Shown here: positions 17,360-38,840 of the stretch, piece by piece | Layout: each line of letters opens with the position of its first letter | Position numbering within the stretch: the stretch's first letter is position 1 | Assembly: GCA_025062375.1 (NCBI GenBank) | Contig: JANXAG010000009.1 | Span: 1-48,245 of the forward strand | Origin: Anaerolineae bacterium | Lineage (GTDB): Bacteria > Chloroflexota > Anaerolineae > SpSt-600 | Length of the DNA: 48,245 nt | Direction: 5' to 3' | Program-made: the position numbers and the translations under genes | Notes under the pieces: generated by a model | The model's database searches: none | What the model was told of the DNA's origin: nothing | The model's input: only the letters and a program-made list of their open reading frames with translations

Positions 17360-19393
17360 ATGAAAACCGAAGCTTTGTTTTGGGCAATTCACATACCGCT
17401 TATGGTTCTTTTCCTGATCGGCCTGGCCGATGTCGTAGGAGTCTGGCTTCGGGGTAGGGTAGAGGGTGTTGGGGATCTTCCGGTTAAAAGGAAGTTCATC
17501 ACCCTGCTGGGCCGGGCAATTAAAACCATTTTCAGCCGCCGCTTTCTCCTTTTCCTGAAAGCGTTTATAACAGAAGCCTGGTTTAACCGTCGCCTCTGGC
17601 AGACCAGCCGCTGGCGCTGGCTTAACCATTTCCTTCTCCTCAATGGCTTCCTCCTCTTGACAGCTCTTTCAGCTCTGGCAGCTCTTTCGGAAAAAGTCCT
17701 CTACCATTTATTCCACCTTGGGCACATCCCGTGGATTTCCATGTGGTACACTGCCGACCACCCGCTTATAGCGTTCTTGAACGAAATCGGGGGGATAATG
17801 ATGACAGTGGGACTGCTTTTTTACACCATCCGCCGCTACGTGGTTCGCCCCCCGCAACTCCGCACCGGCCCTATGGATACCTGGATGGTAGTCGCTCTTG
17901 GGGTTATCCTCCTCACCGGCTGGATAACGGAGATCGTTCGTCTGAACGCTGGATACGAAGGGACTGCCCCATATCTGGCTTTCATTAGCTACCCGCTTTC
18001 CCGCCTGGTCTCCGGGCTGAATCTTCCCTGGAAGAGTCTCTTTGAGTGGCTCTTTCTGGCTCATGGCCTATTTGTTTCCGTTGTCATTGTCACAATTCCC
18101 TATTCCAAATTCTTCCACGCTGTTGCCACGGCTCTAATGGCTACGTGGGATGGAGTTCAGCAGGAAACGGCAAGGGGCCACGCTGCAGATAGCCCTGTTA
18201 CGTTTACTTTTCAGCAACTGGTGGCCCTGGATGCGTGCACCCGGTGTGGGGAGTGCGTGCGGTGGTGTCCCACTTTCGCCGAAAAGCCAGAGCTGGATGC
18301 AATTACTCCTCTGCGTAAGATTGAAACGGTCCGGCGGTTTGTGCGGCGGCAGTATGGCCTTATCGCGCGTTTCCTGGGGCCTCGTCCGCCCGGGCCGGAG
18401 GAACTCAGGGTTCATTCGAGTGGAACATATGATTGCACCCTTTGCGGGCGCTGTGCTGTGGTTTGCCCGGCTTACATCCAGACTCGTCCTCTGTGGATTG
18501 CTATGCGTGAAGACCTGGTTAAGCAGGGTGTTTATCCGGCCATCTTTGACCGGCTTCGGGAGACTTTCCTGACATCTCACAACATTTCAGGTGATGATAA
18601 CGCTAATCGGCTCATATGGAGCCAGAACCTGCCCGGGATCCCGGAAGGTGTTATCAGGAAGGACCGGGCTGAGGTGGTATATTTTGTCGGGTGCGTTGCC
18701 TCATTTTACCCCCAGTGTTATTCCATCCCTCAGAACGCGGTGCAGCTTCTGGATAGGGCTGGAGTGGATTACATGACGCTGGGGGATGAGGAGTGGTGCT
18801 GCGGTTTTCCCCTGATCATCGCTGGAATGGGTGAGGCGGTGGTAGAGACCGTGCGCCATAATCTGGAAGCCATACGTCGGACAGGGGCAAAGCGGCTGGT
18901 TACGGGGTGTCCATCCTGCTATCACACCTGGAAGCACGATTATCCTCGTATTTCAGGAGAACCCCTGGGTTTTGAGGTGTTGCATCTGACGGAGCTATTA
19001 GTAGAGTTGCTCGAGGGGGGACATCTTCCGCTTCGCCCCTTGGAGGAAACAGTTACCTACCATGATCCCTGTGATCTGGGGCGAACGAGTGGGGTATACG
19101 AAGCACCACGTCAGGTCATCCGGGCCATTCCAGGGATCACACTGGTGGAGATGGAGCACCACCACCAATATTCTCTCTGTTGCGGCGGAGGTGGTGATGT
19201 GGAGATGGCGGACAAGGAGCTGGTGACTGCGGTAGCGCGGCGGCGCCTGAAGGAGGCTCAGACGGCAGGCGCCAGAATAATTCTTTCAGCCTGCCAGCAG
19301 TGCAAGCGCACTCTGACCGCCGCGGCTCGCCAGGAAAAAGTCCGCATCCGGGTGATGGACGTGGTGGAGCTTGTGGCACAACAGGTTTTATAG
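17360..19393 (+). CDS. Membrane HdrE-HdrD fusion (heterodisulfide reductase-like, b-type cytochrome plus FeS/CCG subunit)
   Basis: 677 residues. The first ~265 residues hold about six membrane helices with histidines (for example YHLFHLGHIPW, LFLAHGLF), like the gamma subunit of nitrate reductase/HdrE heme b proteins. Then come two [4Fe-4S] motifs (CTRCGECVRWCP near residue 293, CTLCGRCAVVCP near 359) and two CCG domains (WCCGFPL near 480 with CPSCYH; HDPCDLGR with CCGGGG near 608 and CQQCK), as in HdrD, DsrK and TmcB. It probably moves electrons between the quinone pool and a cytoplasmic disulfide or other acceptor. It is a single-gene transcript with its own promoter; the substrate is unknown. 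In many organisms these two parts are separate genes. Confidence 0.88.
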   Translation: MKTEALFWAIHIPLMVLFLIGLADVVGVWLRGRVEGVGDLPVKRKFITLLGRAIKTIFSRRFLLFLKAFITEAWFNRRLWQTSRWRWLNHFLLLNGFLLLTALSALAALSEKVLYHLFHLGHIPWISMWYTADHPLIAFLNEIGGIMMTVGLLFYTIRRYVVRPPQLRTGPMDTWMVVALGVILLTGWITEIVRLNAGYEGTAPYLAFISYPLSRLVSGLNLPWKSLFEWLFLAHGLFVSVVIVTIPYSKFFHAVATALMATWDGVQQETARGHAADSPVTFTFQQLVALDACTRCGECVRWCPTFAEKPELDAITPLRKIETVRRFVRRQYGLIARFLGPRPPGPEELRVHSSGTYDCTLCGRCAVVCPAYIQTRPLWIAMREDLVKQGVYPAIFDRLRETFLTSHNISGDDNANRLIWSQNLPGIPEGVIRKDRAEVVYFVGCVASFYPQCYSIPQNAVQLLDRAGVDYMTLGDEEWCCGFPLIIAGMGEAVVETVRHNLEAIRRTGAKRLVTGCPSCYHTWKHDYPRISGEPLGFEVLHLTELLVELLEGGHLPLRPLEETVTYHDPCDLGRTSGVYEAPRQVIRAIPGITLVEMEHHHQYSLCCGGGGDVEMADKELVTAVARRRLKEAQTAGARIILSACQQCKRTLTAAARQEKVRIRVMDVVELVAQQVL

Positions 19394-19441: not shown

Positions 19442-20701
19442 ATGAGTAACGAATTGCAGATTGATGCCTATCCACCGGCTAAAATGGCCAGCCGCATGGA
19501 AGAAGTTGGGGTTACCAAAGCCAACATGGATTTCTGGACCATGTTCGCCCTTGCTATTCTGGCGGGGGCGTTCATTGGCACGGGGGGCATATTCCTCACC
19601 ACGGTAACAACCGGATTGAGTGCGGCTGGTGTGCCTTTTGGCCTGGTTCGTTTGATAGGGGGCCTGGTTTTCTGCCTCGGCCTGATTGCGGTCTCTGTAG
19701 CCGGAGCGGAGCTATTCACTGGCAATAACCTCATCATAATGGCATATGCCAGTGGCCGGGTAACAACCGCTCAGCTTCTGCGCAACTGGGTTATTGTGTA
19801 TGCGGGGAACTTCGTCGGCTCTATCCTTACCGCTCTGGTAATGTTCCTGACGGGTCAATACATGTTTGCTTCTGGTGCGCTCGGATTGAATGCCCTTTCC
19901 ATTGCCGATGCCAAGTGCAACCTGGGGTTCATCCAGGCTATTGCGCTGGGCATTATGTGCAATGCTCTGGTGTGCCTGGCTGTCTGGCTATGCGCTTCGG
20001 CTCGGTCCACCACTGATAAGATACTCTCCATAATCTTCCCCATCACCGCCTTCGTCGCCGCCGGATTTGAGCACAGCATCGCCAACATGTATCTTATCTC
20101 CATTGGCCTCTTTATCAAATCTTGGGCGCCTCCTGCTTTTTGGGAAGCCATCGGTAAGACCCCTGCAGACTTTGTCCATCTTACTTGGGCGGCTTTCTTC
20201 CTCAAAAACCTGTTGCCTGTCACCATTGGGAACATTATCGGAGGCTCTGGTTTCGTAGGACTAACCTACTGGTTTGTCTACCTGCGCCCGAAGAAGAAGG
20301 TGGAGCTTGTGCCAGGAGTAGCACCGAGAATTCTGGTGGTTGATGACGACGCAGACTTTGTGGACCTGTGCCGCATGATCCTCACAAAGGAGGGATACCA
20401 GGTCAGTGCAGCCAGCGACGGACAGCAAGCCCTGCAGATGATGCGGAATGAGCGGCCAGATCTGGTGTTGCTGGACATAATGATGGCAACACCTCTTGAA
20501 GGCGTGGCAGTGGCGCGGGAAATTGCTTCCGATCCTAACCTTAAGACACTCCCCGTGGTCATCGTTTCCAGCATTGATAGCAGCCAGTATGCGAGCCTTC
20601 TTCCCGATGATGTGCACATACCGGTGGATGCCTGGATCAGCAAGCCTATAGATCCGGACCATCTTTTGCGCACTGTCCGTCGCTTCGTAAAGGGCCGATA
20701 A
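19442..20701 (+). CDS. Formate/nitrite transporter (FNT) channel fused to a response-regulator receiver domain
   Basis: 419 residues. Residues about 30-285 are an FNT-family channel (FocA/NirC type) with six membrane segments, including LAGAFIGTGGIFL, AGAELFTGNNLIIMAYASGR, WVIVYAGNFVGSI, ALGIMCNALVCLAVWL and NLLPVTIGNIIGGSGFVG. After a short basic linker (YLRPKKKVELVPG) a complete CheY-like receiver follows (residues ~294-419) with the acidic pair in VVDDDADF, phosphoacceptor Asp345 in LVLLDIMM, and the switch Lys in ISKPIDPD. The frame is continuous with no sign of error at the junction. FNT channels pass formate, nitrite or hydrosulfide; which is not clear. The fusion suggests that phosphorylation may gate or localise the channel. 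Confidence 0.88.
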   Translation: MSNELQIDAYPPAKMASRMEEVGVTKANMDFWTMFALAILAGAFIGTGGIFLTTVTTGLSAAGVPFGLVRLIGGLVFCLGLIAVSVAGAELFTGNNLIIMAYASGRVTTAQLLRNWVIVYAGNFVGSILTALVMFLTGQYMFASGALGLNALSIADAKCNLGFIQAIALGIMCNALVCLAVWLCASARSTTDKILSIIFPITAFVAAGFEHSIANMYLISIGLFIKSWAPPAFWEAIGKTPADFVHLTWAAFFLKNLLPVTIGNIIGGSGFVGLTYWFVYLRPKKKVELVPGVAPRILVVDDDADFVDLCRMILTKEGYQVSAASDGQQALQMMRNERPDLVLLDIMMATPLEGVAVAREIASDPNLKTLPVVIVSSIDSSQYASLLPDDVHIPVDAWISKPIDPDHLLRTVRRFVKGR

Positions 20702-20707
20702 AGGGGG

Positions 20708-20739
20708 GCGCCAGGCGCCTTAAGGTGCCTGGCGCTTTC
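20708..20739 (+). terminator. Rho-independent terminator after the FNT-receiver gene
   Basis: An uninterrupted 12-bp stem (GCGCCAGGCGCC paired with GGTGCCTGGCGC, one G-T pair) around a TTAA loop, followed by TTTC. It separates this gene from the next signalling gene. Confidence 0.85.
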
Positions 20740-20776
20740 TTCCGTCAAGTTGTAAAATTCTTTTTGGAGCTAATAG

Positions 20777-21943
20777 ATGAATGCTCCGGTGCGTGTTTTA
20801 GTTGTAGATGATGAAATTGGTATCCGTGAAGGATGTCGGCGGGTTCTTGGTCCCCGGGGGTTTGAAGTAGATGTAGCGGAAAATGGCCCTGTGGGCCTCC
20901 GGAAACTCAGAGAATCCCGCTATGATGTCCTTTTGTTGGATATAATAATGCCTGGCATGAGTGGCATGGAAGTCCTCCACCAGGCTCGTCAGATAGACCC
21001 CGAGCTCATATGCATTGTTATTACTGGCTATGCCACTGTAGAGTTGGCAGTTCAAGCGATTCGTGAGGGTGCTCATGACTTTATTGCCAAGCCTTTTTCC
21101 GCTGATCATCTATTGCAGGTAATTAACCGGGAGCTGGAACGCCGAGCTCTGCGCAAAGAAGCAGAGAAGCTTAAAGCTCTTGAAGAGGAAGCCCGAGAAC
21201 TGGCTCGCACCAAGGCGGAACTTCAGAAGCTGGAAGCAGTGGAAAGCCGTTTTATGGTCTCTCTAGTCCATATACTGAGAGCTCCCGTGGCTGTTATCCA
21301 AAATACGCTCCAGCTTATCCGAAAGGGTTACATACCGCCAGAGGAAATACCGGAGACTCTGGAACGGCTTGAAATTAGGGCAGGAGAGTTGCTGGAAACA
21401 CTGGATGATTTATTGCTCCTGGCCCACCTCAAAGAAAGAATTGGCCTGAGCCAAACAGAGATAACTTCCCTGGCGGAGGTCCTGAACGAGGTTTTAGTCA
21501 GCTTGAAGCCCAACGCTGATCGCCAGAGGTTGACCATGAAGGTGGATGTGCAGGATTCCCCAAAGGTGCGGGCTAATCCGGCTCATATCAGAGCCCTGTG
21601 GAAACACCTTATAGATAATGCGATCCGTTACACCCCTTCTGGTGGTCATATAACCATCTCCTTGTGGGCGGACAAGGAGCGGGGCCTGGCCATTGGAGCT
21701 GTCTCTGATACCGGAATTGGCATCCCAGCAGACGAAATTCCCCGTATATTTGAAGAATTTTATCGGGCTCAGGAGGCAAAACGCATGCGAGAAACGGGCA
21801 CGGGCCTGGGTCTGCCAATTGTCCGGCAGGTGCTGGAACTGTACGGCGGAACCATTGAGGTGGAATCGGAAGTGAGCCGGGGGAGCACCTTTCGCTTTAT
21901 GCTTCCTCTGGTAGAGGATCAGGATGAAATTAAGCTTGCTTAA
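20777..21943 (+). CDS. Receiver-histidine kinase protein (REC-HisKA-HATPase), soluble
   Basis: 388 residues. N-terminal receiver (residues 5-120) with DDE at 11-13, phosphoacceptor Asp55 (LLLDIIMPG) and Lys105 (AKPF). A coiled-coil linker rich in E, A and K (about 125-160) leads to a HisKA helix with His165 in LVHILRAPV; the Glu that normally follows the His is Ile here. The ATPase domain has an N box (HLIDNAIRYTP), G1 (SDTGIGIP) and G2 (GTGLGLPIVRQ). It has no membrane or PAS domain, so input must come through the receiver. Close paralogue of the gene at 23959, with a Cache kinase between them. Confidence 0.9.
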   Translation: MNAPVRVLVVDDEIGIREGCRRVLGPRGFEVDVAENGPVGLRKLRESRYDVLLLDIIMPGMSGMEVLHQARQIDPELICIVITGYATVELAVQAIREGAHDFIAKPFSADHLLQVINRELERRALRKEAEKLKALEEEARELARTKAELQKLEAVESRFMVSLVHILRAPVAVIQNTLQLIRKGYIPPEEIPETLERLEIRAGELLETLDDLLLLAHLKERIGLSQTEITSLAEVLNEVLVSLKPNADRQRLTMKVDVQDSPKVRANPAHIRALWKHLIDNAIRYTPSGGHITISLWADKERGLAIGAVSDTGIGIPADEIPRIFEEFYRAQEAKRMRETGTGLGLPIVRQVLELYGGTIEVESEVSRGSTFRFMLPLVEDQDEIKLA

Positions 21944-21970: not shown

Positions 21971-23947
21971 ATGAGGGAAATTTTCTTGCGGCTCTTAGGT
22001 GGACGGTTGCGGACAACTTTGACTATTTCCTTTGCGCTCGTGGCGGCGTTGACGGTAGGATTGAACGCCCTGGTTGTTTCCTGGGTGATCCATGAGTATT
22101 TGGTCTCTGCTGAGGCGGAAAGGATAGCACGGGATATGAAATTGGCCGAGACTCTATATCAGCTCAAACTGGACGAGATTGCTGCTATCAGCCACCGACT
22201 GGCGCTGGACCCTTGGGTGGTGGAAAACTTCGCAGCTGCAGCTAAAGGAGATCCTGAAGCGATCCAGATCATTGACCGGCAGATTACCAATAAAATCATA
22301 GTGCTGGCTCTGGGTGGCACTCATCTTATTGCCATCCTGGATACCAAGGGAAACCTGGTGACCGGGAAAGTCCTCTGGCCTGATGGAGAGATCTCTCCCC
22401 CTCTGACTGATGGCTACTTTGGTGACCTTCCTATAGTCCGCACTGTGCTGGAAAAAGGCAAGCCTCTGGCTTCTACTGAGATTATTCCTGCGGAAGTCCT
22501 GGCTCAGGTAGGATTAGATAAGCAGGCTTATATACCATTGCTGGAAACCCCATTAGCCGCCCCGGAGCCCTTTGACCCTCGCGAAGGAACAGCGGGATTG
22601 GCCCTGGTGGGAATTTCTCCGCTCAGAGACAAGTCGGGGCAACTCATTGGCGCAATTCTTTCGGCTTACATGTTCAATAACGACTATACTTTGGTGGACC
22701 GGATCAAAGAGGTTGCCGGGATAGATACTGTCACTATCTTTTTGGGTGACCTGCGGGTTTCTACCAATGTGACTGATGAAGAGGGGCGACGTGCTATTGG
22801 CACCCGTATTTCTCAAGCTGTCCGTAAAGTTGTTTTGGAGGAAGGACGGGAGTACGTTGGGCGTGCCTTTGTTGTGAAAGAATGGTATATAACTCGTTAT
22901 GAACCACTGCGGGACCATATGGGCAATGTGGTTGGTAGTCTGTATGTGGGCGCGCGAGAGGCTAACTTTCAGGCGCTGGTGCAAAAATTTAACCAGCGGG
23001 TTGCGCTGATAGCCATCATTTGTATCCTGCTGGCGGTAGTTATAGCCTTCCCTATCAGTTACCTCTTTACTTTGCCAATTACTGAATTAGTAGTAGCGCA
23101 CCGCCGTCTGGCGTCAGGGGATATGTCTGTCCGGGTTAAGATCCACGGAAATGGCGAATTAGCGGCATTGGGTCATTCGTTCAATGTTATGGCTGAAACA
23201 CTCCACCGCACCCAGCAGGAATTGCTCCACAAAGAGAAGTTGGCTTCTATGGGTCAACTGGCCGCTGGCGTGGCTCATGAGTTAAATAACCCTCTGGGCA
23301 CCATTATGCTCTTTGCCGATGCACTTCAACGGGAGCTTCCGCCCGATGACCACCATCAGGAAGATGTGAAGATGATTTTGCAAGAGGCTGACAGGGCTAA
23401 AAAAATAGTTGCCGGCCTTCTTAACTTCGCTCGCCAGCAGGAAATCTTAGCTCAGGACACTAACTTGCATGCTCTTCTGGACCAGGTGGTGGAGAATCTC
23501 CGGCACCAGCCCATTTTTGCCGAAGTAGAAATAGTCCGGTGCTACGATCCAAAAGTCCGCATTATTCAGGCAGATCCCGCTCAACTGCAGCAAGTGTTCA
23601 TTAACCTCCTTACAAACGCTGCAGAGGCCATAAATGGGCCGGGCACCATCACTATCACTACGCGAGCATTAGACGGACAGGTAGAAATTTCTATTTCTGA
23701 TACCGGATGCGGCATCCCTGAAGAAAACATGAGCAAGCTTTTCACCCCTTTCTTCACCACAAAGCCTCCAGGAAAAGGCACGGGTTTAGGCCTTTCCATA
23801 GTTTATGGCATAATTAAAATGCATCGTGGGCAAATTTCTGTCCAGAGCCAGGTGGGCAAGGGGACGACTTTTACCATTACTTTGCCAGAAAAGTGGATGG
23901 GTAAAATGGAACGCGCTATCCCGGCTTCAGAGGAGATCATCGGTTAA
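21971..23947 (+). CDS. Cache-HAMP sensor histidine kinase
   Basis: 658 residues. A first membrane helix (about 16-38), an extracytoplasmic domain of ~300 residues with Cache-like features (AILDTKGNLVTGK, ALVGISPLRDKSGQLIGAIL, YEPLRDHMGNVVGSLYVGA), a second helix (about 340-362), and HAMP with RLASGDMSVRVKIHG. The HisKA motif GVAHELNNPLG has its His near residue 436, and the ATPase motifs are NLLTNAAEAI, SDTGCGIPEEN and KGTGLGLSIVYGI. NtrB-like HELNNP kinases usually signal to separate receivers; the two flanking receiver-kinases are obvious partners. The ligand is unknown, perhaps a small organic acid. Confidence 0.92.
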   Translation: MREIFLRLLGGRLRTTLTISFALVAALTVGLNALVVSWVIHEYLVSAEAERIARDMKLAETLYQLKLDEIAAISHRLALDPWVVENFAAAAKGDPEAIQIIDRQITNKIIVLALGGTHLIAILDTKGNLVTGKVLWPDGEISPPLTDGYFGDLPIVRTVLEKGKPLASTEIIPAEVLAQVGLDKQAYIPLLETPLAAPEPFDPREGTAGLALVGISPLRDKSGQLIGAILSAYMFNNDYTLVDRIKEVAGIDTVTIFLGDLRVSTNVTDEEGRRAIGTRISQAVRKVVLEEGREYVGRAFVVKEWYITRYEPLRDHMGNVVGSLYVGAREANFQALVQKFNQRVALIAIICILLAVVIAFPISYLFTLPITELVVAHRRLASGDMSVRVKIHGNGELAALGHSFNVMAETLHRTQQELLHKEKLASMGQLAAGVAHELNNPLGTIMLFADALQRELPPDDHHQEDVKMILQEADRAKKIVAGLLNFARQQEILAQDTNLHALLDQVVENLRHQPIFAEVEIVRCYDPKVRIIQADPAQLQQVFINLLTNAAEAINGPGTITITTRALDGQVEISISDTGCGIPEENMSKLFTPFFTTKPPGKGTGLGLSIVYGIIKMHRGQISVQSQVGKGTTFTITLPEKWMGKMERAIPASEEIIG

Positions 23948-23958
23948 GGTGATGAAAG

Positions 23959-25098
23959 ATGAATGAGCCTCCGCGTATTCTGGTTATAGACGATGAGGAG
24001 GGCATTCGGGCAGGCTGTCAGAGAGCTCTGGAACCAGAAGGTTACATCGTAGAGACCGCCGCTACAGGCCAGGAAGGGCTACGACGTTTCTTAGAGGGCA
24101 GTTTTGATCTGGTCTTAATTGATATATTCCTGCCTGATATGCGTGGCATTGACCTTTTAAAGCCTATGCTGGAAAAGGACCCCGACGTTATATGCATAAT
24201 CATCACCGGGTATGCTACTATAGAACTGGCGGTCCATGCTATCAAGGCTGGAGCTTATGATTTTCTCTCCAAGCCCTTTTCCGGTGATGTGCTGCGGTTA
24301 ACGGTAGCCCAGGGCCTGGAGCGGCGCCGGCTTTCTCTGGAGGCAAAGCGCCTGCGGAAACTTGAAGAGGAGGCGCGTGAACTGGCGCGAGCTAAAGAGG
24401 AGCTTGAGCGGTTGGACCGTTTCAAAACCATGTTTATGTTTACAGTGGCCCATGAGCTTCGGGCGCCCTTAAATGCTCTCCAGAGTTTCCTTTTAGCCAT
24501 TATCAAAGGATACATCCCACCTGATGAGTGGAAAGAAGTGCTGGAACGTGCTGTCCAGAGGACGCAGGACTTGCTAAATCTGGTGGATGATTTACTCAAG
24601 TTGGCGGCAGCGAAAAGCGAAAAAGGGTTAGAAAAACGGGAGTCGGTCTCTCTGGCAGAAGTCCTGGAGAAAGTATTCCCTCTCTTCAAAGCTGAGGCTG
24701 AGGCCAAAGGTATTAAGTGCGTTCTGGAAATCCGCCAGCGTCCGATAGTCCAAGCTGATCCAGACCAGATGGCTCAGGTTTGGAGTAACCTCATATCTAA
24801 CGCAGTAAAATACACGTTGCCTGGAGGGCAGATACGAGTAATACTGGAAGAGCGGGATGGGTGGGCTATTGGAACAGTGGAAGACACTGGTATCGGCATT
24901 GCACCTCAAGATCTGGATCGCATTTTTGAGGAATTTTACCGTACCCCTCAGGCTAAGAAAATTGCACCTCGCGGGACAGGATTGGGGCTCCCGTTGGTCA
25001 AGTCCATTGTAGAAGCGCATGGCGGAAATATTACAGTGAACTCGGAATTGGGACGCGGCAGCAGTTTCGTGTTCCGGCTACCTGCCTCCGAGAGCTGA
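23959..25098 (+). CDS. Receiver-histidine kinase protein (REC-HisKA-HATPase), soluble
   Basis: 379 residues, the same layout as the gene at 20777: receiver with VIDDEEGI, Asp55 in LVLIDIFLPD and Lys105 in LSKPF; a charged helical linker; canonical HisKA motif TVAHELRAPLNAL with His165; N box NLISNAVKYTLPGG; G1 EDTGIGIAPQD; G2 GTGLGLPLVKSI. It starts 12 nt after the Cache kinase and so is probably co-transcribed. Likely an intermediate in a phosphorelay that starts at the Cache kinase. No DNA-binding output domain is encoded nearby. Confidence 0.91.
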   Translation: MNEPPRILVIDDEEGIRAGCQRALEPEGYIVETAATGQEGLRRFLEGSFDLVLIDIFLPDMRGIDLLKPMLEKDPDVICIIITGYATIELAVHAIKAGAYDFLSKPFSGDVLRLTVAQGLERRRLSLEAKRLRKLEEEARELARAKEELERLDRFKTMFMFTVAHELRAPLNALQSFLLAIIKGYIPPDEWKEVLERAVQRTQDLLNLVDDLLKLAAAKSEKGLEKRESVSLAEVLEKVFPLFKAEAEAKGIKCVLEIRQRPIVQADPDQMAQVWSNLISNAVKYTLPGGQIRVILEERDGWAIGTVEDTGIGIAPQDLDRIFEEFYRTPQAKKIAPRGTGLGLPLVKSIVEAHGGNITVNSELGRGSSFVFRLPASES

Positions 25099-25177: not shown

Positions 25178-25555
25178 CTACTTTTTCAGCTTTTCCTCTA
25201 TCAACGCCAGCAATTTATCCGGGTCAATTGGTTTGTGGATCCACTCATCCGCTGGGGCGTACTCGCCCGCAGGGACCACCCCCTGAGCACGCGCTCCGGT
25301 GAGCGATGTTACCATAATAACCGGAATATCTTTTAACTCTGGGTCTTTGGCCATCTCACGGCTGACGTCAAGCCCGTCCAGGATGTAAGACATCATGATG
25401 TCAAGGAGGACCAAGTCTGGTTTTTCCCTCCGCATCACCCGGAGCGCCTCTCTTCCGCTGGCAGCCGTAAGGACTTCATGGCCCTTGGATTTTAGAATCC
25501 GTTGCGTCAGCTTTATAAAGTCCGGATCATCGTCCACTACCAGAATCCTGGCCAT
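25178..25555 (-). CDS. CheY-like single-domain response regulator
   Basis: 125 residues, only a receiver: VVDDDPDF acidic pair, phosphoacceptor Asp in LVLLDIMMSYILDGLD, switch Lys in IHKPIDPDKLLALIEEK. It is clearly related to the receiver fused to the FNT channel (shared LVLLDIMM, KPIDPD and the same spacing). Last gene of the hydrogenase operon, about 20 nt after the cytochrome b gene. It probably acts by protein contact since there is no output domain. Confidence 0.92.
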   Translation of the reverse strand: MARILVVDDDPDFIKLTQRILKSKGHEVLTAASGREALRVMRREKPDLVLLDIMMSYILDGLDVSREMAKDPELKDIPVIMVTSLTGARAQGVVPAGEYAPADEWIHKPIDPDKLLALIEEKLKK

Positions 25556-25575: not shown

Positions 25576-26289
25576 TTAATGCTTACCCCGTTTCTTAGCT
25601 TCCCAGATTTCCATCGCTCGCCTGGGTCCATAGAACCACTTGGCATGGTGTTCAGCAGCGTAATCTGCTGAGGTTACCCCAAAGCGCATGCTTACCAAAG
25701 CACCCCACATCAAAGGATGTGCTACTGCCAGATAAAGGTGAACCATCAACATGCTCACGGATAAAATCATTGCCAGGTCATGAAGCACCACTGCCAACTG
25801 GAAGATGCTGGGAGAAACAAACCCTTTCCCAAACCACATCGTCAAACCGGTTACCCCAAATATTGCCCATGTTATCATTGTCACCAGCCCGAAGAGTTTC
25901 TCGCCGGCGTTGAATCGGCCCTGAGGGGGCATGGCCTCATGCCTGCCGAAAAGATAATAAGGTATAGCTCCCTTCAGCCAGCCTATGTCCTCTTTTTCTG
26001 GTAAGAAGTCCCGGACAAGCATTATGAAGCGGCGGGGCTGCAAGATAGCATAGACAATGGGCACGAGGCCAAAAAAGACCGCCGCAATTCTGTGGACGAG
26101 GCGAATAAATATGCCTGCTTCTCCCTGAGCCAGTGGCTGGAGGAAGGGAAAATACATGATCATCCCGGTAATGGCCAGGGGTACAAAGGCTGCGGTGTGA
26201 ACCCAGTGGACTATTCTCTCCATAAGGGTGTATTTGGGAATCCACTGAATGGTGATAATATCGGGCTTACCTTTGATTTGAACGCTCAT
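25576..26289 (-). CDS. Hydrogenase cytochrome b subunit (FdnI/formate dehydrogenase-gamma type)
   Basis: 237 residues, four to five membrane helices with conserved histidines for heme b: RIVHWVHTAAFV, RLVHRIAAVFFG, VVLHDLAMILSV and MVHLYLAVAHPLMWG. The sequence style matches cytochrome b556 of formate dehydrogenase-N more than HyaC. It would take electrons from the FeS protein and pass them to quinone. Its ATG overlaps the stop of the FeS gene by 3 nt. Confidence 0.9.
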   Translation of the reverse strand: MSVQIKGKPDIITIQWIPKYTLMERIVHWVHTAAFVPLAITGMIMYFPFLQPLAQGEAGIFIRLVHRIAAVFFGLVPIVYAILQPRRFIMLVRDFLPEKEDIGWLKGAIPYYLFGRHEAMPPQGRFNAGEKLFGLVTMITWAIFGVTGLTMWFGKGFVSPSIFQLAVVLHDLAMILSVSMLMVHLYLAVAHPLMWGALVSMRFGVTSADYAAEHHAKWFYGPRRAMEIWEAKKRGKH

Positions 26290-27176
26290 TTCACTTCCTC
26301 CATTCGGATATAACGGCGGGCAATGAGGAAAACGACCACTATCCCCAAAATGGCGGCTCCAAAGGCTACTTCTCCCAGGGGCTGGATCAGCTTCTGCCAG
26401 ATGGAGGCAAGCTCCGGTGTGCGTGGAACAGAGGGCAATCCATATTGTTCTGGTTCATCCAGCAGAATGCTAAGCCGGTGCAGCCCACCTGCCTCTTTTT
26501 CCCCGTAGAGGCGGGCATTTATCCCCTGAGCCTGTAACTCGGCCACCCGTGCCCGAGCTTTTTCCAGCAATTCTACCCGTTTGCCCCAGTTCAGGGCGCC
26601 CACCGGGCAAATTTCCGCACAGGATGGCCCACCAATGCCCCTCCAGATACGGTCCTGACAGAAAGTGCATTTGGCGGATTTTGCTCTTCCGGTGAATACA
26701 TTTACAACCTGAAGATGCGGAACACCATAGGGGCAGAACTGAGTGCAGTAGCCACAACCGTTGCACTTATCCCGATCTAAGGAAACAAATCCCAGCGGGT
26801 CATGTGAGAGCGCACTTGTTGGGCAAACGATTACGCATGCGGCGTTAGTGCAATGCATGCACTGATAATTGAAAAAGTGCCACCCTTTTTCTGTCCGCTT
26901 TAATTTGATGATATTCCAGGTGATAGCTGAAAGGCCCAAAGGGGACTCATAAATCCTCATGGGGTCTGTGCTTTCTGGGGGGAGCTTGTTCCACCGTTTG
27001 CAGGCCATTTGGCAAGCCCGGCAGCCGACGCATTTCAATGGATCAAAGAGAATTGCTAAGCGCTCGGGAGAGACCGCTGAAGTTGATACCGTCTCGGAGC
27101 GTGGATTTGTTAGCAAGGCACCCAGACCCAGAGCTGAGAGGCCCAAGAATTCCCGACGGGTCATGGTTCCGCTCAT
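26286..27176 (-). CDS. Tat-exported four-cluster ferredoxin protein with C-terminal anchor (HybA/FdnH-like)
   Basis: 296 residues. Twin-arginine signal TRREFLGLSALGLGALL at the N-terminus. Cys groups CVGCRACQMACK, CMHCTNAACVIVCP, CNGCGYCTQFCP and CTFC...CAEICP bind four [4Fe-4S] clusters, as in FdnH and HybA. A membrane helix lies near residues 265-287 (GAAILGIVVVFLIARRYI). It passes electrons from the small subunit to the cytochrome b. The start overlaps the end of the protease gene (ATGA). Confidence 0.93.
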   Translation of the reverse strand: MSGTMTRREFLGLSALGLGALLTNPRSETVSTSAVSPERLAILFDPLKCVGCRACQMACKRWNKLPPESTDPMRIYESPLGLSAITWNIIKLKRTEKGWHFFNYQCMHCTNAACVIVCPTSALSHDPLGFVSLDRDKCNGCGYCTQFCPYGVPHLQVVNVFTGRAKSAKCTFCQDRIWRGIGGPSCAEICPVGALNWGKRVELLEKARARVAELQAQGINARLYGEKEAGGLHRLSILLDEPEQYGLPSVPRTPELASIWQKLIQPLGEVAFGAAILGIVVVFLIARRYIRMEEVK

Positions 27177-27658
27177 TTTTCACCTCCCTCAGCGGGTTGA
27201 ATTCCCCAGCGTTCTAACTCGGCCAAAATGTTCCGGATCACCGTTTCCATCTGAGCGGCGACGATCGGGGTGAGTTCCAGCCCTACTTCCAGGGAAGCGG
27301 GCTGAACTCCCCAGAGGACCAGTTCGGAAGGATAGCGATCCAGGAAACGAGCCGTTGCCAGGAGGTCGCTCAATCCCATCTGGTGTGAAGAGTACTTCAG
27401 GCTTAGAACAGCTGGAATTTCTTCTCCTTCCAAACGAACCACTGTGCCCGGGGGAGCTCCTATCTGAACAGCATCCACGATAAGTAATCGGTCCGCTTTT
27501 TCCACGTAAGGTAAAAGGTCCAACGCCAGCGTTCCGCCATCCAGGATTTCCACCTCCTGCGGGAACTGATACCGTTCCCGCAAGAGGTGGACTACGTGAA
27601 CCCCGAACCCGTCGTCGCTCAGGAGGAGGTTACCTAAACCTAAGACCAGAGTCTTCAT
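27173..27658 (-). CDS. Hydrogenase maturation protease (HyaD/HybD family)
   Basis: 161 residues. GLGNLLLSDDGFGVHVV contains the first metal-binding acid; LLIVDAVQ and SSHQMGLSDLL provide the other two ligands (Asp and His). This protease senses nickel in the large subunit and cuts after the His of the L2 motif, removing the 20-residue tail seen in the neighbouring gene. The ATG overlaps the large-subunit stop codon. Confidence 0.95.
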   Translation of the reverse strand: MKTLVLGLGNLLLSDDGFGVHVVHLLRERYQFPQEVEILDGGTLALDLLPYVEKADRLLIVDAVQIGAPPGTVVRLEGEEIPAVLSLKYSSHQMGLSDLLATARFLDRYPSELVLWGVQPASLEVGLELTPIVAAQMETVIRNILAELERWGIQPAEGGEK

Positions 27659-29373
27659 GGACAGGCCCAGTCATTCAGGCGGATCCGGGTTACCTCCCGG
27701 CCCTGGGCATCCGTCACGTGGACGGCGCAGGCCATGCACGGGTCAAAGGAATGGATGGTGCGCAGAATCTCTATGGGCCGCTCCGGGTCAACTACGGGGG
27801 TTCCCACCAGTGAGGCTTCATAAGCCCCAGGCTGCCCTTGGGCGTCTCGTGGGGATGCGTTCCAGGTAGAAGGCACGACTGCCTGGTAATTGGCTATCTT
27901 GCCGTTTACGATGCGCACCCAGTGGCCCAGGGATCCGCGCGGCGCCTCGTGAGGCCCCCACCCCTGCGCTTCCTTAGGCCAGGTGGCAGGATCCCACTTT
28001 TCCCCGTTGTGGATCTGAAGGTCACCCCGGCTGATGTTATCGGCGAGTTCGTCAACCCACGCATTTAATTGCTCAGCGATAACTAGAGTTTCAATGCCGC
28101 GCGCCGCTGTCCGGCCCAGGGTGGAGAAGAGAGCCTCAGGCCCTACCCCCAGTTGCGTAAGGACACTGTCCACCAGTTCCTTTACGCGCTTGTGGCCAGA
28201 GGCGTAAGCGATCAGCATTCGGGCCAGCGGGCCAACTTCCATAGCTTTTCCATCATACCGTGGGGCCTTGAGCCAGGAGTATTTGCCGTCGGTGTTGAGG
28301 TATTCGTAAGGCGGCTTGGGACCAGTGTAGTTGGGGATGGTCTCCCCCTCCCAGGGATGTTTGGCGACAGTGTCCCCTTCGGTGTACTGATACCAGGAGT
28401 GCGTCACATATTCGGCGACCTTCTGCTGGTCCAGCGGGTAGACCCTGCTCAGATCCCGGTTGAGGATAACGCCTGAAGGGAGGAAGAAGTTCCCTGCTCT
28501 GTCGGGATACTCGCCGTAGGACAGGAAGTTGCCCAACCCTTCACCGAGTTTCGTCCATTCGTCCTTGTAGAAAGAAGCGATAGCCAGGAGGTCGGGGATA
28601 TAGACCTGCTGGACGAAGGTGAGGGCTTTGGTGAAGAGTTTCTTCAGAAAAGCCAATTTATCGGCATTCAGTGCAGTTTCGCTGTCGGGGTCCACCGGGA
28701 TTGCCATGCCGCCCACCAGGTAAGTTTGCGGATGGGGGTTCTTTCCTCCCAGTATAGCATGGGCCCGGATAACGTCCCGCTGCCAGTCCAGTGCTTCCAG
28801 GTAATGGGCCACAGCCATCAGGTTGGCTTCGGGCGGCAGACGGTAAGCGGGGTGGCCCCAGTAACCGTTGGCGAAGAGACCCAGCTGGCCGCTTCGCACA
28901 AAAGCATCCAGCTTTTCTTTGATTGTTCGGAAATAGTCGGGGCTGGAGTTGGGCCAATCAGAAATGGACTGTGCCAGCTGGGCTGTCTTGTCTGGATCAG
29001 CTTTGAGGGCGCTGGTAATATCCACCCAATCCAGGGCATGGAGATGGTAAAAGTGAATGACGTGGTCCTGAACATACTGAATTCCAGCGATCAGGTTCCG
29101 GATAATGCGGGCGTTATCCGGAATCCATATTCCAAGGGCATTTTCTACGCTTCGCACGGAAGCGAGGGCGTGCACCGTCGTTCAGACCCCTCATATCCGT
29201 TGAGCCATCAGCCAGGCTTCGCGTGGGTCACGGCCTTTCATAATGATTTCCAGTCCCCGGAACATTGTGCCGGAAGCCCATGCTTCGGTGACGCGGCCGT
29301 CTTCCACGCGAGCCTCAATGCGCAGGTGGCCTTCAATACGGGTGATAGGATCAATCACTATTTTCTGAGCCAT
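27655..29373 (-). CDS. [NiFe] hydrogenase large subunit with two in-frame UGA codons (candidate selenocysteines) in the L1 nickel-binding motif
   Basis: Read as one gene of 572 residues from ATG 29373. The L0 motif DPITRIEGHLRIE is near residue 8. The L1 motif reads Q-R-I-UGA-G-V-UGA-T-T-V-H, with UGA codons 61 (29193-29191) and 64 (29184-29182). Both fall on the Ni-binding Cys of the family motif RICGVCxxxH, and the flanking sequence is fully conserved with no frameshift. The L2 motif DPCMACAVH (Cys546, Cys549, His552) has normal Cys codons and is followed by a 20-residue tail for the protease. A conventional caller would split it into 29191-29373 and 27655-29175. Selenocysteine is the best reading; a decayed gene is unlikely because only those two codons differ. 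The enzyme should oxidise periplasmic H2. Its start overlaps the small-subunit gene by 23 nt. Confidence 0.88.
29148..29164 (-). promoter_or_regulatory. Candidate bacterial SECIS-like hairpin in the hydrogenase large-subunit mRNA
   Basis: On the - strand, CGCTTC, loop CGTGC, GAAGCG: a perfect 6-bp stem with a 5-nt loop whose second base is G. It begins 17 nt after UGA codon 64 and 26 nt after UGA codon 61. Bacterial SECIS hairpins usually have a short apical loop with a G at its start, at about this distance from UGA. One element could serve both codons. Not tested by folding software. Confidence 0.5.
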
Positions 29374-30466
29374 GGGACTCCTCCTCTTTCTTCTTTGTCA
29401 GCTGGTAGAGTGCAACAGTTCCGGCCACGCCGGCCGCTACTCCCACGGCAGCACCAATAGCTCCTGCCGCAGTTGGGGATATTTCTACGACAGGCTTTAC
29501 TTCAGGATAGGCTGTCGGTGGCGTCAGGACGTGGATAGGAACGGGCTCGTAGGCAGGCATCTCCCAGAAGTTAGGAGCAGCACAGGCAATACAGCCGTGG
29601 CCTGCGCCCACCGGCCAGCTGGTTCCTTCATTCCACCGGATGGAAGGACAGTTCTGGAAAGCTACAGGCCCTTTGCAGCCCATCTTGTAGAGGCACCAGC
29701 CGTTGCGGTGGCCCTCATCGCCCCAAGCTTCTACAAATTCTCCAGCATCAAAGTGGCCGCGTCGCTCGCAGTTATCGTGGATGCGGCGGCCATAGGCGAA
29801 GAGAGGCCGTCCCAAATCGTCCAAAGCAGGCAGTTCTTTGAAGGTCAAATAGTGAACTATTGTAGCCGTCAGGTTATCCGCGTTCATAGGGCACCCCGGC
29901 AAGTTGACGATGGGCACTCCGGAAATGATGTCTTTTACACCCTTAGCTCCGGTGGGATTAGGAGGTGTCGCTGGCCAGCCGCCGTAGAAAGCGCAGGCTC
30001 CTACGGTGATGATAGCTGCTGTGTTTGCTGCTGCTTCTTTTAGAATTTCCAGCGCTGATCGCCCGGCAATGCAGCAGTATACCCCGTCATCTTTGACTGG
30101 GATGGAGCCTTCCACGACCGTAATGTATCCGCCTTCCCGAATAGTATCGTGGAGGGACTTTTCAGCGGCGTGGCCTGAGGGAGCCATGACCGTTTCATGG
30201 TAGTTCAGGGAGATAATATCCAGCACCAGTTCAGCGACGGTGGGTCGGTTAGCGCGCAGGAGGGACTCAGTGCAGCCCGCACAATCTTGAAATTCCAGCC
30301 AGATAACAGATGGTCGGCGGGCACTTTCTAATGCCTGGGCAATCTTAGGGGCCTGGTCTGCCGGGAGAGCTAATATTCCAGCCATAACCGTGCAGAACTT
30401 CATAAATTCGCGGCGAGTAATGCCCCGAGCAGCCAGTTCATCGGCGATGTTAACTCTGGAACTCAT
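29351..30466 (-). CDS. [NiFe] hydrogenase small subunit, Tat-exported and membrane-anchored
   Basis: 371 residues. Tat motif ITRREFMKFCTVMAG near residue 17. The proximal cluster begins at EFQDCAGCTESLL (Cys62, Cys65) with VGACAFYGG and LPGCPMNADN; the distal His/Cys set is HDNCERRGHF and GWCLYKMGCKGP; the medial [3Fe-4S] set is SWPVGAGHGCIACAAPNFW. A glycine-alanine helix near residues 335-358 followed by KKKEEE anchors it in the membrane. This is a group 1, periplasm-facing uptake hydrogenase. First gene of the operon; GAGGAGGAG before the next ATG lies in its 3' end. Confidence 0.95.
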   Translation of the reverse strand: MSSRVNIADELAARGITRREFMKFCTVMAGILALPADQAPKIAQALESARRPSVIWLEFQDCAGCTESLLRANRPTVAELVLDIISLNYHETVMAPSGHAAEKSLHDTIREGGYITVVEGSIPVKDDGVYCCIAGRSALEILKEAAANTAAIITVGACAFYGGWPATPPNPTGAKGVKDIISGVPIVNLPGCPMNADNLTATIVHYLTFKELPALDDLGRPLFAYGRRIHDNCERRGHFDAGEFVEAWGDEGHRNGWCLYKMGCKGPVAFQNCPSIRWNEGTSWPVGAGHGCIACAAPNFWEMPAYEPVPIHVLTPPTAYPEVKPVVEISPTAAGAIGAAVGVAAGVAGTVALYQLTKKKEEESHGSENSD

Positions 30467-35192: not shown

Positions 35193-35221
35193 TTGACAAA
35201 AAAACTGAGCTGAGGTAATAT
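35193..35221 (+). promoter_or_regulatory. Promoter of the hdr operon
   Basis: TTGACA at 35193-35198, 17-nt spacer, TAATAT at 35216-35221, about 40 nt before hdrC. The spacing is ideal. The divergent coaX gene starts about 100 nt away. Confidence 0.75.
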
Positions 35222-35262
35222 TTGGTAGCGCGCCAGGAGGAGGTTTCTTTGAGGTTGAGGAT

Positions 35263-35673
35263 ATGGGAGCGGTAATTTCTCTGGAGAAAATTTTCCTCAA
35301 TCCACTGGCCAGGAGGGTTGAGGAGCTGAGCGGCCAGGATCTTCTGGCCTGTTATCAGTGCGGAGAATGTTCAGCCGGGTGCCCTGCTGCTTTCGCCATG
35401 GATCTCCTGCCAAGTCAGGTTATTCGTCTTCTCCAGCTGGGCCAGGTTGAAGATGTCCTTAAATCGGCCACTATCTGGTTCTGCGCGGCTTGCCAGGCCT
35501 GTTACGCCCGTTGTCCCAAAGGGGTGGACCTATCAAGGATTATGGAAGCCCTGAGGGAACTGGCGATGGAAAGGGATGGAGAACGCCTCAAATACAATCA
35601 AATTCCCGAAGAAGAACTGGATTCTTTTCCTCAGCAGGCAATAATCGCGGGCTTCAGAAAATATACCCTTTAG
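35263..35673 (+). CDS. hdrC: Heterodisulfide reductase subunit C-like ferredoxin
   Basis: 136 residues with two [4Fe-4S] motifs: Cys30, 33, 36, 40 (CYQCGECSAGCP) and Cys74, 77, 80, 84 (CAACQACYARCP). Length and spacing match HdrC, which links HdrA to HdrB. ATG 35263 is the only sensible start, yet the strong AGGAGGAGG lies 20 nt upstream; a short TTG leader frame overlapping the start could be translated from it. First gene of the operon. Confidence 0.95.
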   Translation: MGAVISLEKIFLNPLARRVEELSGQDLLACYQCGECSAGCPAAFAMDLLPSQVIRLLQLGQVEDVLKSATIWFCAACQACYARCPKGVDLSRIMEALRELAMERDGERLKYNQIPEEELDSFPQQAIIAGFRKYTL

Positions 35674-35757
35674 GAGTTTTCCCGATGACTGTCCTTAGAA
35701 CCGGCGCAGAACCCTTCTGGAGTTTGCTCCCGAAACCGCGCAAATGGAGGAGGGTTC

Positions 35758-36639
35758 GTGAAAGTCAGCTATTTTCCGGGATGCACCCTTAACACCAAGG
35801 GCAAAGGGTTTGACCGCTCAGTCCGCGAGGCGATGGCTGTCCTGGGGGTTGAACTGGAGGAGCTTCCCGATTGGAACTGTTGTGGGGCCTCTTTTCCCCT
35901 CCTTGTGGACAATTTGCTGGATCTGGCAGGCCCGGCCAGAATCCTCGTAGCTGCTTCTGCCCGGGGGGAGAAACTCACCACCGCTTGCACCACCTGTTAC
36001 AACGTCCTTAAGCGGACAAACCGGGTGCTTCGCCTGGACCAGGAGAAGCGGGAGAGGCTCAATTATTTCCTTGAAGCCGATTACCAGGGCCAGGTGGAAG
36101 TGCTGGATGTGCTTCAAATCATCAGAGATGAGGTTGGATTTGAAAGAGTAAAGTGGGAAGTAAAGAAGGGCCTCGCAGGTTTGAGGGTGGCCTGTTATTA
36201 TGGGTGCATGGTCCTTCGCCCTCCGGCCGAAGTAGCCTACGATGACCCCGAAAACCCTCATGCCCTTGACGACCTCATGGCTTCCTTGGGAGCTGAGCCT
36301 ATCCTGTGGGGCGGGAAAGTGGAATGCTGTGGTAATTATCTGGTGGCTATCAAGCCTGAAGTGGCTATGGAGATGAGTTACAGGATTATATCTTCTGCCT
36401 TCCGGGCAGGGGCCGAGGTTATTGCAACCAATTGCCCGCTGTGTCAATTTAACCTGGATCGGTGGCAAAAGGACCTGATGGTAACTAGGGGGGGCTTCAG
36501 GCCCATGCCTGTGCTTTATTTCACCCAGCTTTTGGCTTTAGCCCTTGGCCTTGACCCCAACCATTATGAACTGGATAAGCATTACGTTGACCCAAGGCCC
36601 CTGCTCAGGGCAAAGGGGTTGTGGAATGAATCAGGCTAA
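35758..36639 (+). CDS. hdrB: Heterodisulfide reductase subunit B-like (two CCG domains), GTG start
   Basis: 293 residues from GTG with GGAGGAGG upstream. Two CCG cysteine sets: Cys9, Cys41-42, Cys77 and Cys80; then Cys146, Cys150, Cys190-191, Cys226 and Cys229. In HdrB these hold the two non-cubane [4Fe-4S] clusters that cleave heterodisulfide. In bacteria lacking CoM-S-S-CoB the acceptor is unknown. It follows hdrC after 84 nt, and its end overlaps the cation-efflux gene by 14 nt. Confidence 0.95.
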   Translation: MKVSYFPGCTLNTKGKGFDRSVREAMAVLGVELEELPDWNCCGASFPLLVDNLLDLAGPARILVAASARGEKLTTACTTCYNVLKRTNRVLRLDQEKRERLNYFLEADYQGQVEVLDVLQIIRDEVGFERVKWEVKKGLAGLRVACYYGCMVLRPPAEVAYDDPENPHALDDLMASLGAEPILWGGKVECCGNYLVAIKPEVAMEMSYRIISSAFRAGAEVIATNCPLCQFNLDRWQKDLMVTRGGFRPMPVLYFTQLLALALGLDPNHYELDKHYVDPRPLLRAKGLWNESG

Positions 36640-37549
36640 ACAGCGCCTTGCCTGGGCCCTTATCCTGACCAGCGTGATTCTGGCCACTGAGGTTGCAGGA
36701 GGGCTGTGGACCAGAAGCCTGGCTTTGCTTTCCGATGCTGCTCATGTCTTTTTTGATATTCTGGCACTGGGTTTCAGCTACCTCGCCCTGCGATTGGCTT
36801 CACTGCCTCCTGACGACCGTTACACTTATGGGTTTCACCGGGTGCAGGTGCTGGCCGCACTGGTAAACGGAGCCACCCTGGTCCTGGTGGCCTTCGGTAT
36901 TTTGCGCGAAGCCTGGGAACGGTTCCTCCATCCGGAGAATATACTGGCAGGCCCCATGCTTGTGGTGGCATTGATAGGTTTTGGCATTAACCTTCTGGTA
37001 ATCCTCATCCTTCGGCGCCACGACCACCACGACCTTAACGTCCGCAGCGCTTTCCTTCACGTCCTGGGCGATACCCTTTCCTCTATTGGTGTTATCGCCG
37101 CTGGAGCGATCATTTTCTTCACCAGGTGGTTCTGGGTGGATCCCCTCATCAGTGTGTTCATTGTGTTGATCATCCTGGCAGGATCTGGAAGGCTGCTGAA
37201 AGAAACAGTGCCAATCCTTATTGAAGGGATGCCGGCGGGCATCAGAGCTTCCCAGGTGGCCGAGGCTATGCTTCAAGTGGAGGGAGTGCAGGAGGTGCAC
37301 GATCTACATGTTTGGACCATCAGTCCCGGGTTCGTGGCCCTAAGCGCTCATGTGGTCCTGGCTGACCAGGCCCTCAGCCAGGCTCAGAGCATTATGGAGG
37401 AACTGAAACACCTTCTGACCGCCAGGTTCGGGATTGAGCATACAACGATTCAATTTGAATGCCAAAGCTGCGGACAGGGAACGTCTGTTTGCGTTGTAGG
37501 GATGTCGCCCTGGTCAAGAGAAAAGGGAGAATCAAACCATGCCCATTAA
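36626..37549 (+). CDS. Cation diffusion facilitator (CDF/ZitB-CzcD family) metal efflux protein
   Basis: 307 residues from ATG 36626; an earlier ATG at 36545 lies inside hdrB and adds no homology. Six membrane helices; metal site in LLSDAAHVFFDILAL (Asp, His, Asp) and HVLGDTLSSIGV (His, Asp); a His loop RRHDHHD; and a cytoplasmic ferredoxin-like C-terminal domain (VHDLHVWTISPGFVALSAHV). It expels Zn, Co, Ni or similar ions. It overlaps hdrB by 14 nt and hdrA by 11 nt, so it is locked into the hdr operon. Confidence 0.93.
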   Translation: MNQAKQRLAWALILTSVILATEVAGGLWTRSLALLSDAAHVFFDILALGFSYLALRLASLPPDDRYTYGFHRVQVLAALVNGATLVLVAFGILREAWERFLHPENILAGPMLVVALIGFGINLLVILILRRHDHHDLNVRSAFLHVLGDTLSSIGVIAAGAIIFFTRWFWVDPLISVFIVLIILAGSGRLLKETVPILIEGMPAGIRASQVAEAMLQVEGVQEVHDLHVWTISPGFVALSAHVVLADQALSQAQSIMEELKHLLTARFGIEHTTIQFECQSCGQGTSVCVVGMSPWSREKGESNHAH

Positions 37550-38840
37550 GCGGGCTTTGATAGTAGGAGCAGGCATAGCTGGGATACAGGCTGCCCTGGA
37601 CATTGCCAATGCTGGTTATGAAGTAATCCTGGTGGAAAGGCTCCCGTCCATTGGGGGACATATGCTTCAGCTTTCCGAAACTTTTCCCACGCTGGACTGC
37701 TCCCAGTGCATCCTCACCCCTCGCACTGTGGAAGTGGGTCGCCACCCCAGGATTAAGTTGTACACTTACTCAGAGGTTGAATCAATTGAAGGCGAGCTCG
37801 GGAATTTCAAAGTGCGCATCCGCCGTTATCCGGCTTATGTGGACTGGGACCTCTGCACCGGTTGTGGGGTGTGTCAGGAGAAGTGCCCCAAAAGGGTGGT
37901 TTCCACCGATTTTGAGAGGGGAATAGGCAAACGCAAGGCCATCTACACCCTGTCCCCTCAGGCTGTCCCCAATAAGCCGGTTATAGACGCTGAAAATTGC
38001 CTTTATTTCACTCAGGGCAAGTGTCGGGTGTGCGAGCGCTTTTGCCCCGTCGGGGCCATTGATTATAGCCAGAAGGAGAAAACTTTTGAAGAAGAAGCAG
38101 GGGCTATAGTCATAGCCACCGGTTACGAGCTTTTACCCCTTTCGGAGCTCGGGGAATACGGGGCCGGGACCATACCGGACGTAATAGATTCTCTGGCCTT
38201 TGAGAGGCTTCTCTCAGCATCAGGCCCCACGGGGGGAAAAGTTGTGCGCCCTTCTGACGGGAAAGAGCCAAAGGTGGTGGTTTTTGTCCAATGCGCCGGC
38301 TCCCGCGATCCCGAGCGCCATAAGCCTTATTGCTCTAAGATATGCTGCATGTACACCGCAAAGCACGCCATGCTCTTCAAACACCGGGTCCACGATGGTC
38401 AAGCCATTGTCTTCTACATAGATATACGCTCGGCAGGGAAAGGCTATGAGGAGTTCATCCACCGGGCGGTGATGGAGGACCAAGTCCTTTACATTCGGGG
38501 GAAGGTAGCTCGCATCTACCGCGAAAACGATAAAATCATAGTGCGGGGTGCGGATACCCTCTCGGGCAGGCAGGTGGAAGTAGCTGCCGATTTAGTAGTT
38601 CTGGCTGTGGCTATGATCCCACGCCCTACCACCACGGAATTAGCTGAGAAACTGGGGATAAAGGTGGACCAGCATGGCTTTCTGGTAGAAGCCGATGGAA
38701 ACCTTGCCCCGCTGGAAAGTGGCCGCCCAGGGATTTTCCTGGCTGGGGCTGGCACAGGCCCCAAGGATATACCGGAGACCGTATCCCAGGCCAGTGGGGC
38801 GGCAGGCAAAGTGCTGGCTCTCTTTTCACAATGGAGTTGA
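37539..38840 (+). CDS. hdrA: HdrA-like FAD/iron-sulfur subunit, short form (first copy)
   Basis: 433 residues. The FAD-binding GAGIAG is at residues 10-15. The HdrA motif TFPTLDCSQCILTPRTVEV has Cys54 and Cys57. An inserted ferredoxin carries Cys106, 109, 112, 116 and Cys154, 162, 165, 169. The second half holds FVQCAGSRDPERHKPYCSKI and the GIFLAGAGTGPKDIPETV FAD segment. The usual N-terminal HdrA domain and the C-terminal ferredoxin domain are absent; the next gene has both. HdrA is where electron bifurcation occurs. It overlaps the CDF gene by 11 nt. Confidence 0.93.
   Translation: MPIKRALIVGAGIAGIQAALDIANAGYEVILVERLPSIGGHMLQLSETFPTLDCSQCILTPRTVEVGRHPRIKLYTYSEVESIEGELGNFKVRIRRYPAYVDWDLCTGCGVCQEKCPKRVVSTDFERGIGKRKAIYTLSPQAVPNKPVIDAENCLYFTQGKCRVCERFCPVGAIDYSQKEKTFEEEAGAIVIATGYELLPLSELGEYGAGTIPDVIDSLAFERLLSASGPTGGKVVRPSDGKEPKVVVFVQCAGSRDPERHKPYCSKICCMYTAKHAMLFKHRVHDGQAIVFYIDIRSAGKGYEEFIHRAVMEDQVLYIRGKVARIYRENDKIIVRGADTLSGRQVEVAADLVVLAVAMIPRPTTTELAEKLGIKVDQHGFLVEADGNLAPLESGRPGIFLAGAGTGPKDIPETVSQASGAAGKVLALFSQWS

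Follow-up and report, generated by a model that had tools for sequence, protein, structure and literature searches.

A FocA-type channel fused in frame to a two-component receiver domain in Chloroflexota, with a proposed role in the control of formate flux

The fusion gene, its channel type and likely substrate

Within the window (the whole 48,245 nt stretch of DNA analysed here, from contig JANXAG010000009.1 of an Anaerolineae bacterium) we identified a single ORF at positions 19442–20701 of the forward strand, which starts with ATG, is preceded by a GGAGG-type ribosome-binding site and specifies a protein of 419 aa without an internal stop. As a sequence-only reading of this DNA had proposed, a full FNT channel and a full CheY-like receiver lie in one frame: Pfam searches returned complete matches to Form_Nir_trans (PF01226; residues 15–278, 19484–20275; E-value 3e-78, 262.9 bits against a cut-off of 34.6) and, above its cut-off, to Response_reg (PF00072; residues 297–412, 20330–20677; E-value 6e-21). 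The channel is followed, just past TM6, by a Y280-L281-R282 motif (20279–20287), located by alignment with FocA and a check of the residues, and then by a 14-residue linker (20288–20329) leading into the receiver. The phosphorylation site described in the same reading was likewise found intact, with an acidic patch (VDDD, from residue 300), a predicted phospho-acceptor Asp345 (codon GAC, 20474–20476, within LLDIMM from residue 343), the Ser of VSSID and the Lys of ISKP. With acidic patch, acceptor Asp, Ser/Thr and Lys all present, the receiver is complete in the manner of a response regulator, and Pfam detected no HisKA or HATPase domain on the chain, such as would mark a transporter-kinase of the SLC5/STAC type. 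An AlphaFold2 model of the monomer (mean pLDDT 87.5, pTM 0.81) contained the expected membrane helices and the alpha/beta elements of the receiver, with residues ∼390–400 poorly resolved.

Several comparisons identified the channel as FocA-type. It passed the NCBIfam FocA equivalog model (TIGR04060; 302.3 against 290.1 bits), and a Foldseek comparison with E. coli FocA (9g49) gave a TM-score of 0.96 by target length, an rmsd of 1.3 and 52 % identity. Similarity to proteins in the PDB was far higher for FocA (E-value 1e-83) than for HSC (1e-23), PfFNT (1e-21) or NirC (1e-20), and a nitrite, hydrosulfide or lactate channel is accordingly disfavoured. The constriction residues FFHA (F77, F204, H211 and A214) and the slit residues LLTV/LLFNV (L81, L91, F92, T93, N174 and V177), taken from a published reference (PMC5525234), are present, as is the invariant TM6 Asn (N264). 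The constriction and the YLR motif correspond to those of formate channels (PMC5525234, PMC5572259). When the positions in Table 4 of that reference were counted by hand, 11 of 15 were as in FocA and 11 of 15 as in FdhC. Of the FocA-specific positions, L169 and F92 matched, whilst G94, N95, Y102 and M34 did not; judged by this subfamily table, the fusion channel appears to lie between the FocA and FdhC formate groups.

All five genomes searched, namely four that carry the fusion (G000, G402, G403 and G013) and one from Sumerlaeota (G404), encode a protein that resembles formate dehydrogenase and exceeds the TIGR01591 cut-off. The best such protein contains one in-frame TGA in three of these genomes (G000 contig 22, locus L136, 6200–8254, reverse strand; G403 contig 149; G013 contig 467, 5175–7193), and in G000 this TGA lies within CARL*HSPTVAGL, the site at which enzymes of this family carry selenocysteine; a tRNA search in L136 found none. 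Given a FocA-type channel and nearby genes for formate dehydrogenase, Hdr and hydrogenase, formate is the likely substrate. The 'anion flux' of the sequence-only reading can thus be narrowed to formate as the most likely ion.

Conservation and occurrence of the fusion

Full-length relatives with 88 and 86 % identity were present in two MAGs, Thermoflexus sp. and an uncultured Anaerolineae (L002 and L003), and family-wide scans added fusions in G013 (L037/L067), G437 (L131) and G438 (L129), bringing the full-length relatives to five; L126 and L127 (G721 and G633) hold the same fusions as L002 and L003, on contigs of equal length, and were not counted as extra genomes. The in-frame fusion therefore occurs in six Chloroflexota genomes with five family codes. 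These probably span two classes, G013 being placed in another class of the same phylum by an assignment that is uncertain (8 % estimated contamination). From YLR to the first receiver strand the linker measures 14 residues without indels in 6/6 fusions, and the acceptor Asp, acidic patch and Lys are invariant across them. The sequence-only reading had named two findings that would overturn it. As six genomes share the fusion with an identical 14-residue linker, the first of these, a sequencing error joining two genes at about 20300, is excluded together with an assembly artefact, and the second, absence of the fusion from all relatives, is contradicted by the five further genomes.

The six fusions formed one clade both in a channel tree of 65 sequences (SH-aLRT 98) and in a tree of 42 receivers (support 92). 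For the close pair G402/G403 we obtained dN/dS values of ∼0.05 for the channel and ∼0.13 for the receiver, most other pairs being near saturation at silent sites; these comparisons point to purifying selection on both domains.

Among the genomes sampled, the fusion is rare. FNT matches were obtained in 78 of 400 Chloroflexota genomes and in 156 of 396 genomes of the window's class (a sample that overlaps the former), and of those matches with frames long enough a receiver was present only in the six; these counts cover the matches listed, and fusions cut by contig ends, as well as weak matches in the class sample, could be missed. No fusion was found in the channel-matching genomes of Pseudomonadota (43) and Bacillota (96) or in the 86 plasmid records that matched. 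A Bacillota alignment (G1296) that apparently reached the receiver proved to be a channel ORF that stops, with no receiver. One of 40 Sumerlaeota genomes had an FNT match and the rest had none. The remaining phyla were scanned with peptides from the window protein, which catches close relatives only. In the short flanks examined there was no convincing pre-fusion state, that is, a separate receiver gene beside an unfused channel; the single receiver match so placed (L057) accompanies a divergent channel. No report of an FNT–receiver fusion was found in the literature searched, subscription literature being outside its scope.

That FNT proteins are usually single-domain, as had been stated from the sequence, holds for most of them, but FNT–CBS fusions occur too (L004 64–1287 from Sumerlaeota; L150 1094–2563, L151 1390–2904 and L160 1083–2552 from the Pseudomonadota search, L160 by likeness to L150 only). 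Separately, FNT channels from the Bacillota search (L155 573–1931, reverse strand; L156 781–2100 and 2593–3741; L157, L158 and L159) were seen to bear a conserved N-terminal extension rich in Cys, of the pattern CEHWKEYDS...YCELAAFG...IGCTAEKRKxC...MELN. This extension gave no Pfam match in the three tested and is possibly a metal or redox sensor. Together, the FNT–CBS fusions and Cys-rich extensions suggest that formate channels acquired regulatory domains in several lineages.

Redox genes, receivers and kinases around the fusion

A gene for a membrane Fe–S/CCG protein resembling HdrD, TmcB and HmcF (17360–19393, forward strand; Pfam matches, with NCBIfam matches sub-threshold) lies 48 bp ahead of the fusion gene, and homologues lie upstream of the fusion at L129. 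On the reverse strand of the window is a [NiFe]-hydrogenase operon (25576–30466) in which Pfam and NCBIfam searches recognized small and large subunits, HycI protease, an Fe–S protein and cytochrome b. On the G013 contig the fusion is followed by HdrC, HdrB, HdrA and MvhD and then by the TGA-containing, selenocysteine-type formate dehydrogenase. One stretch of the window (35209–46675) also contains HdrC-like and HdrB genes together with three that are HdrA-like; behind it come two CBS-domain-like genes (46693–47988) and, where the window ends, an MvhD-like frame.

The last gene of the hydrogenase operon (25178–25555, reverse strand) encodes a stand-alone receiver of 125 aa, which at 49 % identity resembles the fused receiver more closely than any other in the window's genome. 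A stand-alone receiver likewise ends a [NiFe]-hydrogenase operon in G402 (L124, 5304–5819), and a further one of this type was seen at L125 (2–337). Near the G438 fusion we observed a gene (L129 5542–6483, reverse strand) that joins an Lrp/AsnC transcription factor to a relative of the fused receiver. The receiver tree places the hydrogenase-linked type together with the fused receivers in one small, moderately supported group, and this suggests that hydrogen and formate traffic share a phosphorelay.

Three kinases immediately downstream had been noted in the sequence-only reading; three are indeed present on the forward strand, but they comprise two receiver-kinases and a single Cache sensor kinase, and a strong hairpin separates them from the fusion gene. 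By Pfam, the first (20777–21943, 388 aa) is a REC-HisKA-HATPase protein with the H-box VHILRAP and orthologues at L131 (67 %) and L123 (81 %); the second (21971–23947, 658 aa) is an sCache_3-HAMP-HisKA-HATPase sensor kinase with relatives in G013 (65 % identity over 640 residues), L131 and L123; and the third (23959–25098, 379 aa) is a receiver-kinase with the canonical H-box AHELRAP, relatives of which flank the fusion at L067. In three orthologues of the first type the His is kept and Ile replaces the usual Glu/Asp after it, and one G013 copy (L067 9827–10975, reverse strand) has Tyr in place of the H-box His; these substitutions lead us to prefer the Cache kinase and the canonical receiver-kinase as candidate phosphate donors. 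The intervening hairpin (20702–20741, forward strand; −33.5 kcal/mol, z −5.8), which was not listed by a consensus terminator scan, is a possible terminator or attenuator; if it terminates, the kinases would be expressed separately or less.

The gene order in G437 (L131), with fusion, receiver-kinase and Cache kinase up to the contig end, is the same as in the window, and in G013 (L067) it is rearranged to Cache kinase, receiver-kinase, fusion, receiver-kinase and Hdr genes, so that a receiver-kinase/Cache-kinase pair adjoins the fusion in three genomes. In G402 the pair is on a separate short contig (L123). Within the few kb flanking the fusion in three genomes (L002, L003 and L129) no such kinase was found, and in the draft MAG G403 the Cache kinase had no strong match. 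Inspection of the genes adjoining the fusion in the window and at L067 revealed no DNA-binding response regulator, and on this account a post-translational output is favoured. In the genomes of L129 and L131 a transcriptional output may exist; at L131 a LuxR-type regulator and its kinase lie ∼3 kb upstream of the fusion.

Proposed role of the receiver and comparison with known systems

How FNT channels are gated in cells is debated, with pH, the N-terminal helix, PflB docking and a short autoinhibitory tail all proposed. The sequence-only reading had described them as usually pH-gated, which does not stand for pH alone, as a partner protein, PflB, is already known to gate FocA by docking from the cytoplasm (PMC11841067). 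In E. coli FocA the Arg of the YLR motif (R280) is needed for formate translocation, which is lost when the last residues up to and including this Arg are removed; moreover, FNT C-termini are cytoplasmic and adjoin the end of TM6 (PMC5572259). In NitM, an FNT nitrite transporter of marine picocyanobacteria, removal of 21 C-terminal residues activates the protein (PMC4390861). Since the C-terminus is cytoplasmic and beside the TM6 end, and with NitM and PflB as precedents, a receiver beginning 14 residues past YLR would be in a good position to influence the channel mouth or adjacent receivers.

From the observed fusion, its conservation, phosphosite, FocA-type pore and neighbourhood we infer, with a probability of roughly 0.58, that phosphorylation of the receiver tail by an adjacent kinase sets formate flux post-translationally. 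In such a scheme the cytoplasmic C-terminal tail of a FocA-type channel, pentameric by family, would have been turned into a two-component receiver, and Asp345 would be phosphorylated by a sensor kinase, most likely the neighbouring Cache sensor kinase or the canonical receiver-kinase. The phosphorylated receiver would then repack against the cytoplasmic channel mouth (the TM6 end, the omega-loop gate and the N-terminal helix) or, alternatively, against its neighbours in the ring. Formate translocation would be raised or lowered without transcription, and formate entry or exit would be matched to the surrounding formate dehydrogenase/Hdr/hydrogenase redox system. As an architecture the fusion is well supported by these comparisons; its role in flux control is a proposal. 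Against that role weigh the hairpin ahead of the kinases, the flanks in three genomes where no such kinase was found, the lack of a strong Cache-kinase match in G403, the altered H-boxes, and the regulators near the fusion at L129 and L131. More tentatively, and at somewhat worse than even odds, the channel may itself be the response regulator, with one receiver per protomer and a phosphorelay shared with the [NiFe]-hydrogenase-linked receiver. If flux control by the receiver is true, two-component signalling would act directly on membrane transport instead of on genes, and a sensor could switch formate flow on or off while bypassing gene regulation. The natural fusion would also provide a defined on/off input, Asp345 phosphorylation, for FNT gating.

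The fused receiver could instead make the channel a formate transceptor, whereby channel occupancy or conformation alters the rate of receiver phosphorylation, and a pool of phosphorylated partner, common with the hydrogenase-operon receiver, reports formate flux. Transporter–signalling fusions are known in the SLC5/STAC histidine kinases CrbS and CbrA (PMC5715377, PMC9100948), and several related receivers and receiver-kinases are clustered, so phosphate could be shared; in the SLC5/STAC systems, however, it is the kinase and not a receiver that the transporter bears, a receiver normally being an output module, and we consider this account unlikely. We likewise think it improbable that the receiver is a docking platform to which, upon its phosphorylation, a kinase or a soluble formate dehydrogenase/Hdr complex is drawn, with flux altered via the docked partner and not by receiver-driven movement of the gate. 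Redox partners are encoded adjacent to the fusion in several genomes and docking of PflB on FocA is established (PMC11841067), yet PflB binds the N-terminal helix of FocA and not its C-terminus.

There is little to recommend a third account, in which the receiver tunes the kinases, as a phosphate sink or as a decoy held at the membrane, and the channel is little affected. Single-domain receivers can serve as phosphate sinks and the hydrogenase operon has a related receiver, but this account leaves unexplained the fusion to a formate channel with a linker of fixed length in six genomes. That the fusion is an artefact or is neutral and functionless can for practical purposes be discounted, for although it is rare and the examined genomes are draft assemblies, it recurs in six genomes as one clade, with a constant linker and apparent purifying selection on both domains.

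Control of formate flux through the receiver tail, the reading we prefer, can be compared with several known systems. E. coli FocA shares ∼52 % identity, fold, pore and gate residues, YLR motif and cytoplasmic C-terminus with the fusion (PMC5572259), but ends a few residues past YLR where the fusion continues into a whole receiver, and the omega-loop residues G94 and N95 of the fusion are FdhC-like, not FocA-like (Table 4, PMC5525234). NitM is alike in that a C-terminal extension controls activity (PMC4390861), but its tail is short and charged with no phosphorylatable domain, and its substrate is another. The FNT–CBS proteins also combine a channel with a C-terminal cytoplasmic regulatory domain, and that at L004 adjoins a formate dehydrogenase; in the channel tree, however, L004 falls outside the clade of receiver fusions. 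CBS domains usually bind adenine nucleotides and are not phosphorylated on Asp. Among short-receiver NCBIfam models, the fused receiver best matches that of DVU0259/DivK-like single-domain receivers (75 bits, with 77 bits for the hydrogenase-linked receiver, both below the 160-bit cut-off), but that model describes a stand-alone protein, whereas the receiver here is fused to a channel and scores below the cut-off; a literature search on the context of DVU0259 found nothing. The SLC5/STAC kinases CrbS and CbrA likewise fuse a transport domain to a two-component module (PMC5715377, PMC9100948), but there the transporter bears a kinase as sensor, whereas here the channel bears a receiver, likely as output. 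A formate channel with a C-terminal regulatory domain is, as the FNT–CBS proteins show, an arrangement that is also met elsewhere, and the SLC5/STAC kinases show that a transport domain can bear a two-component module.
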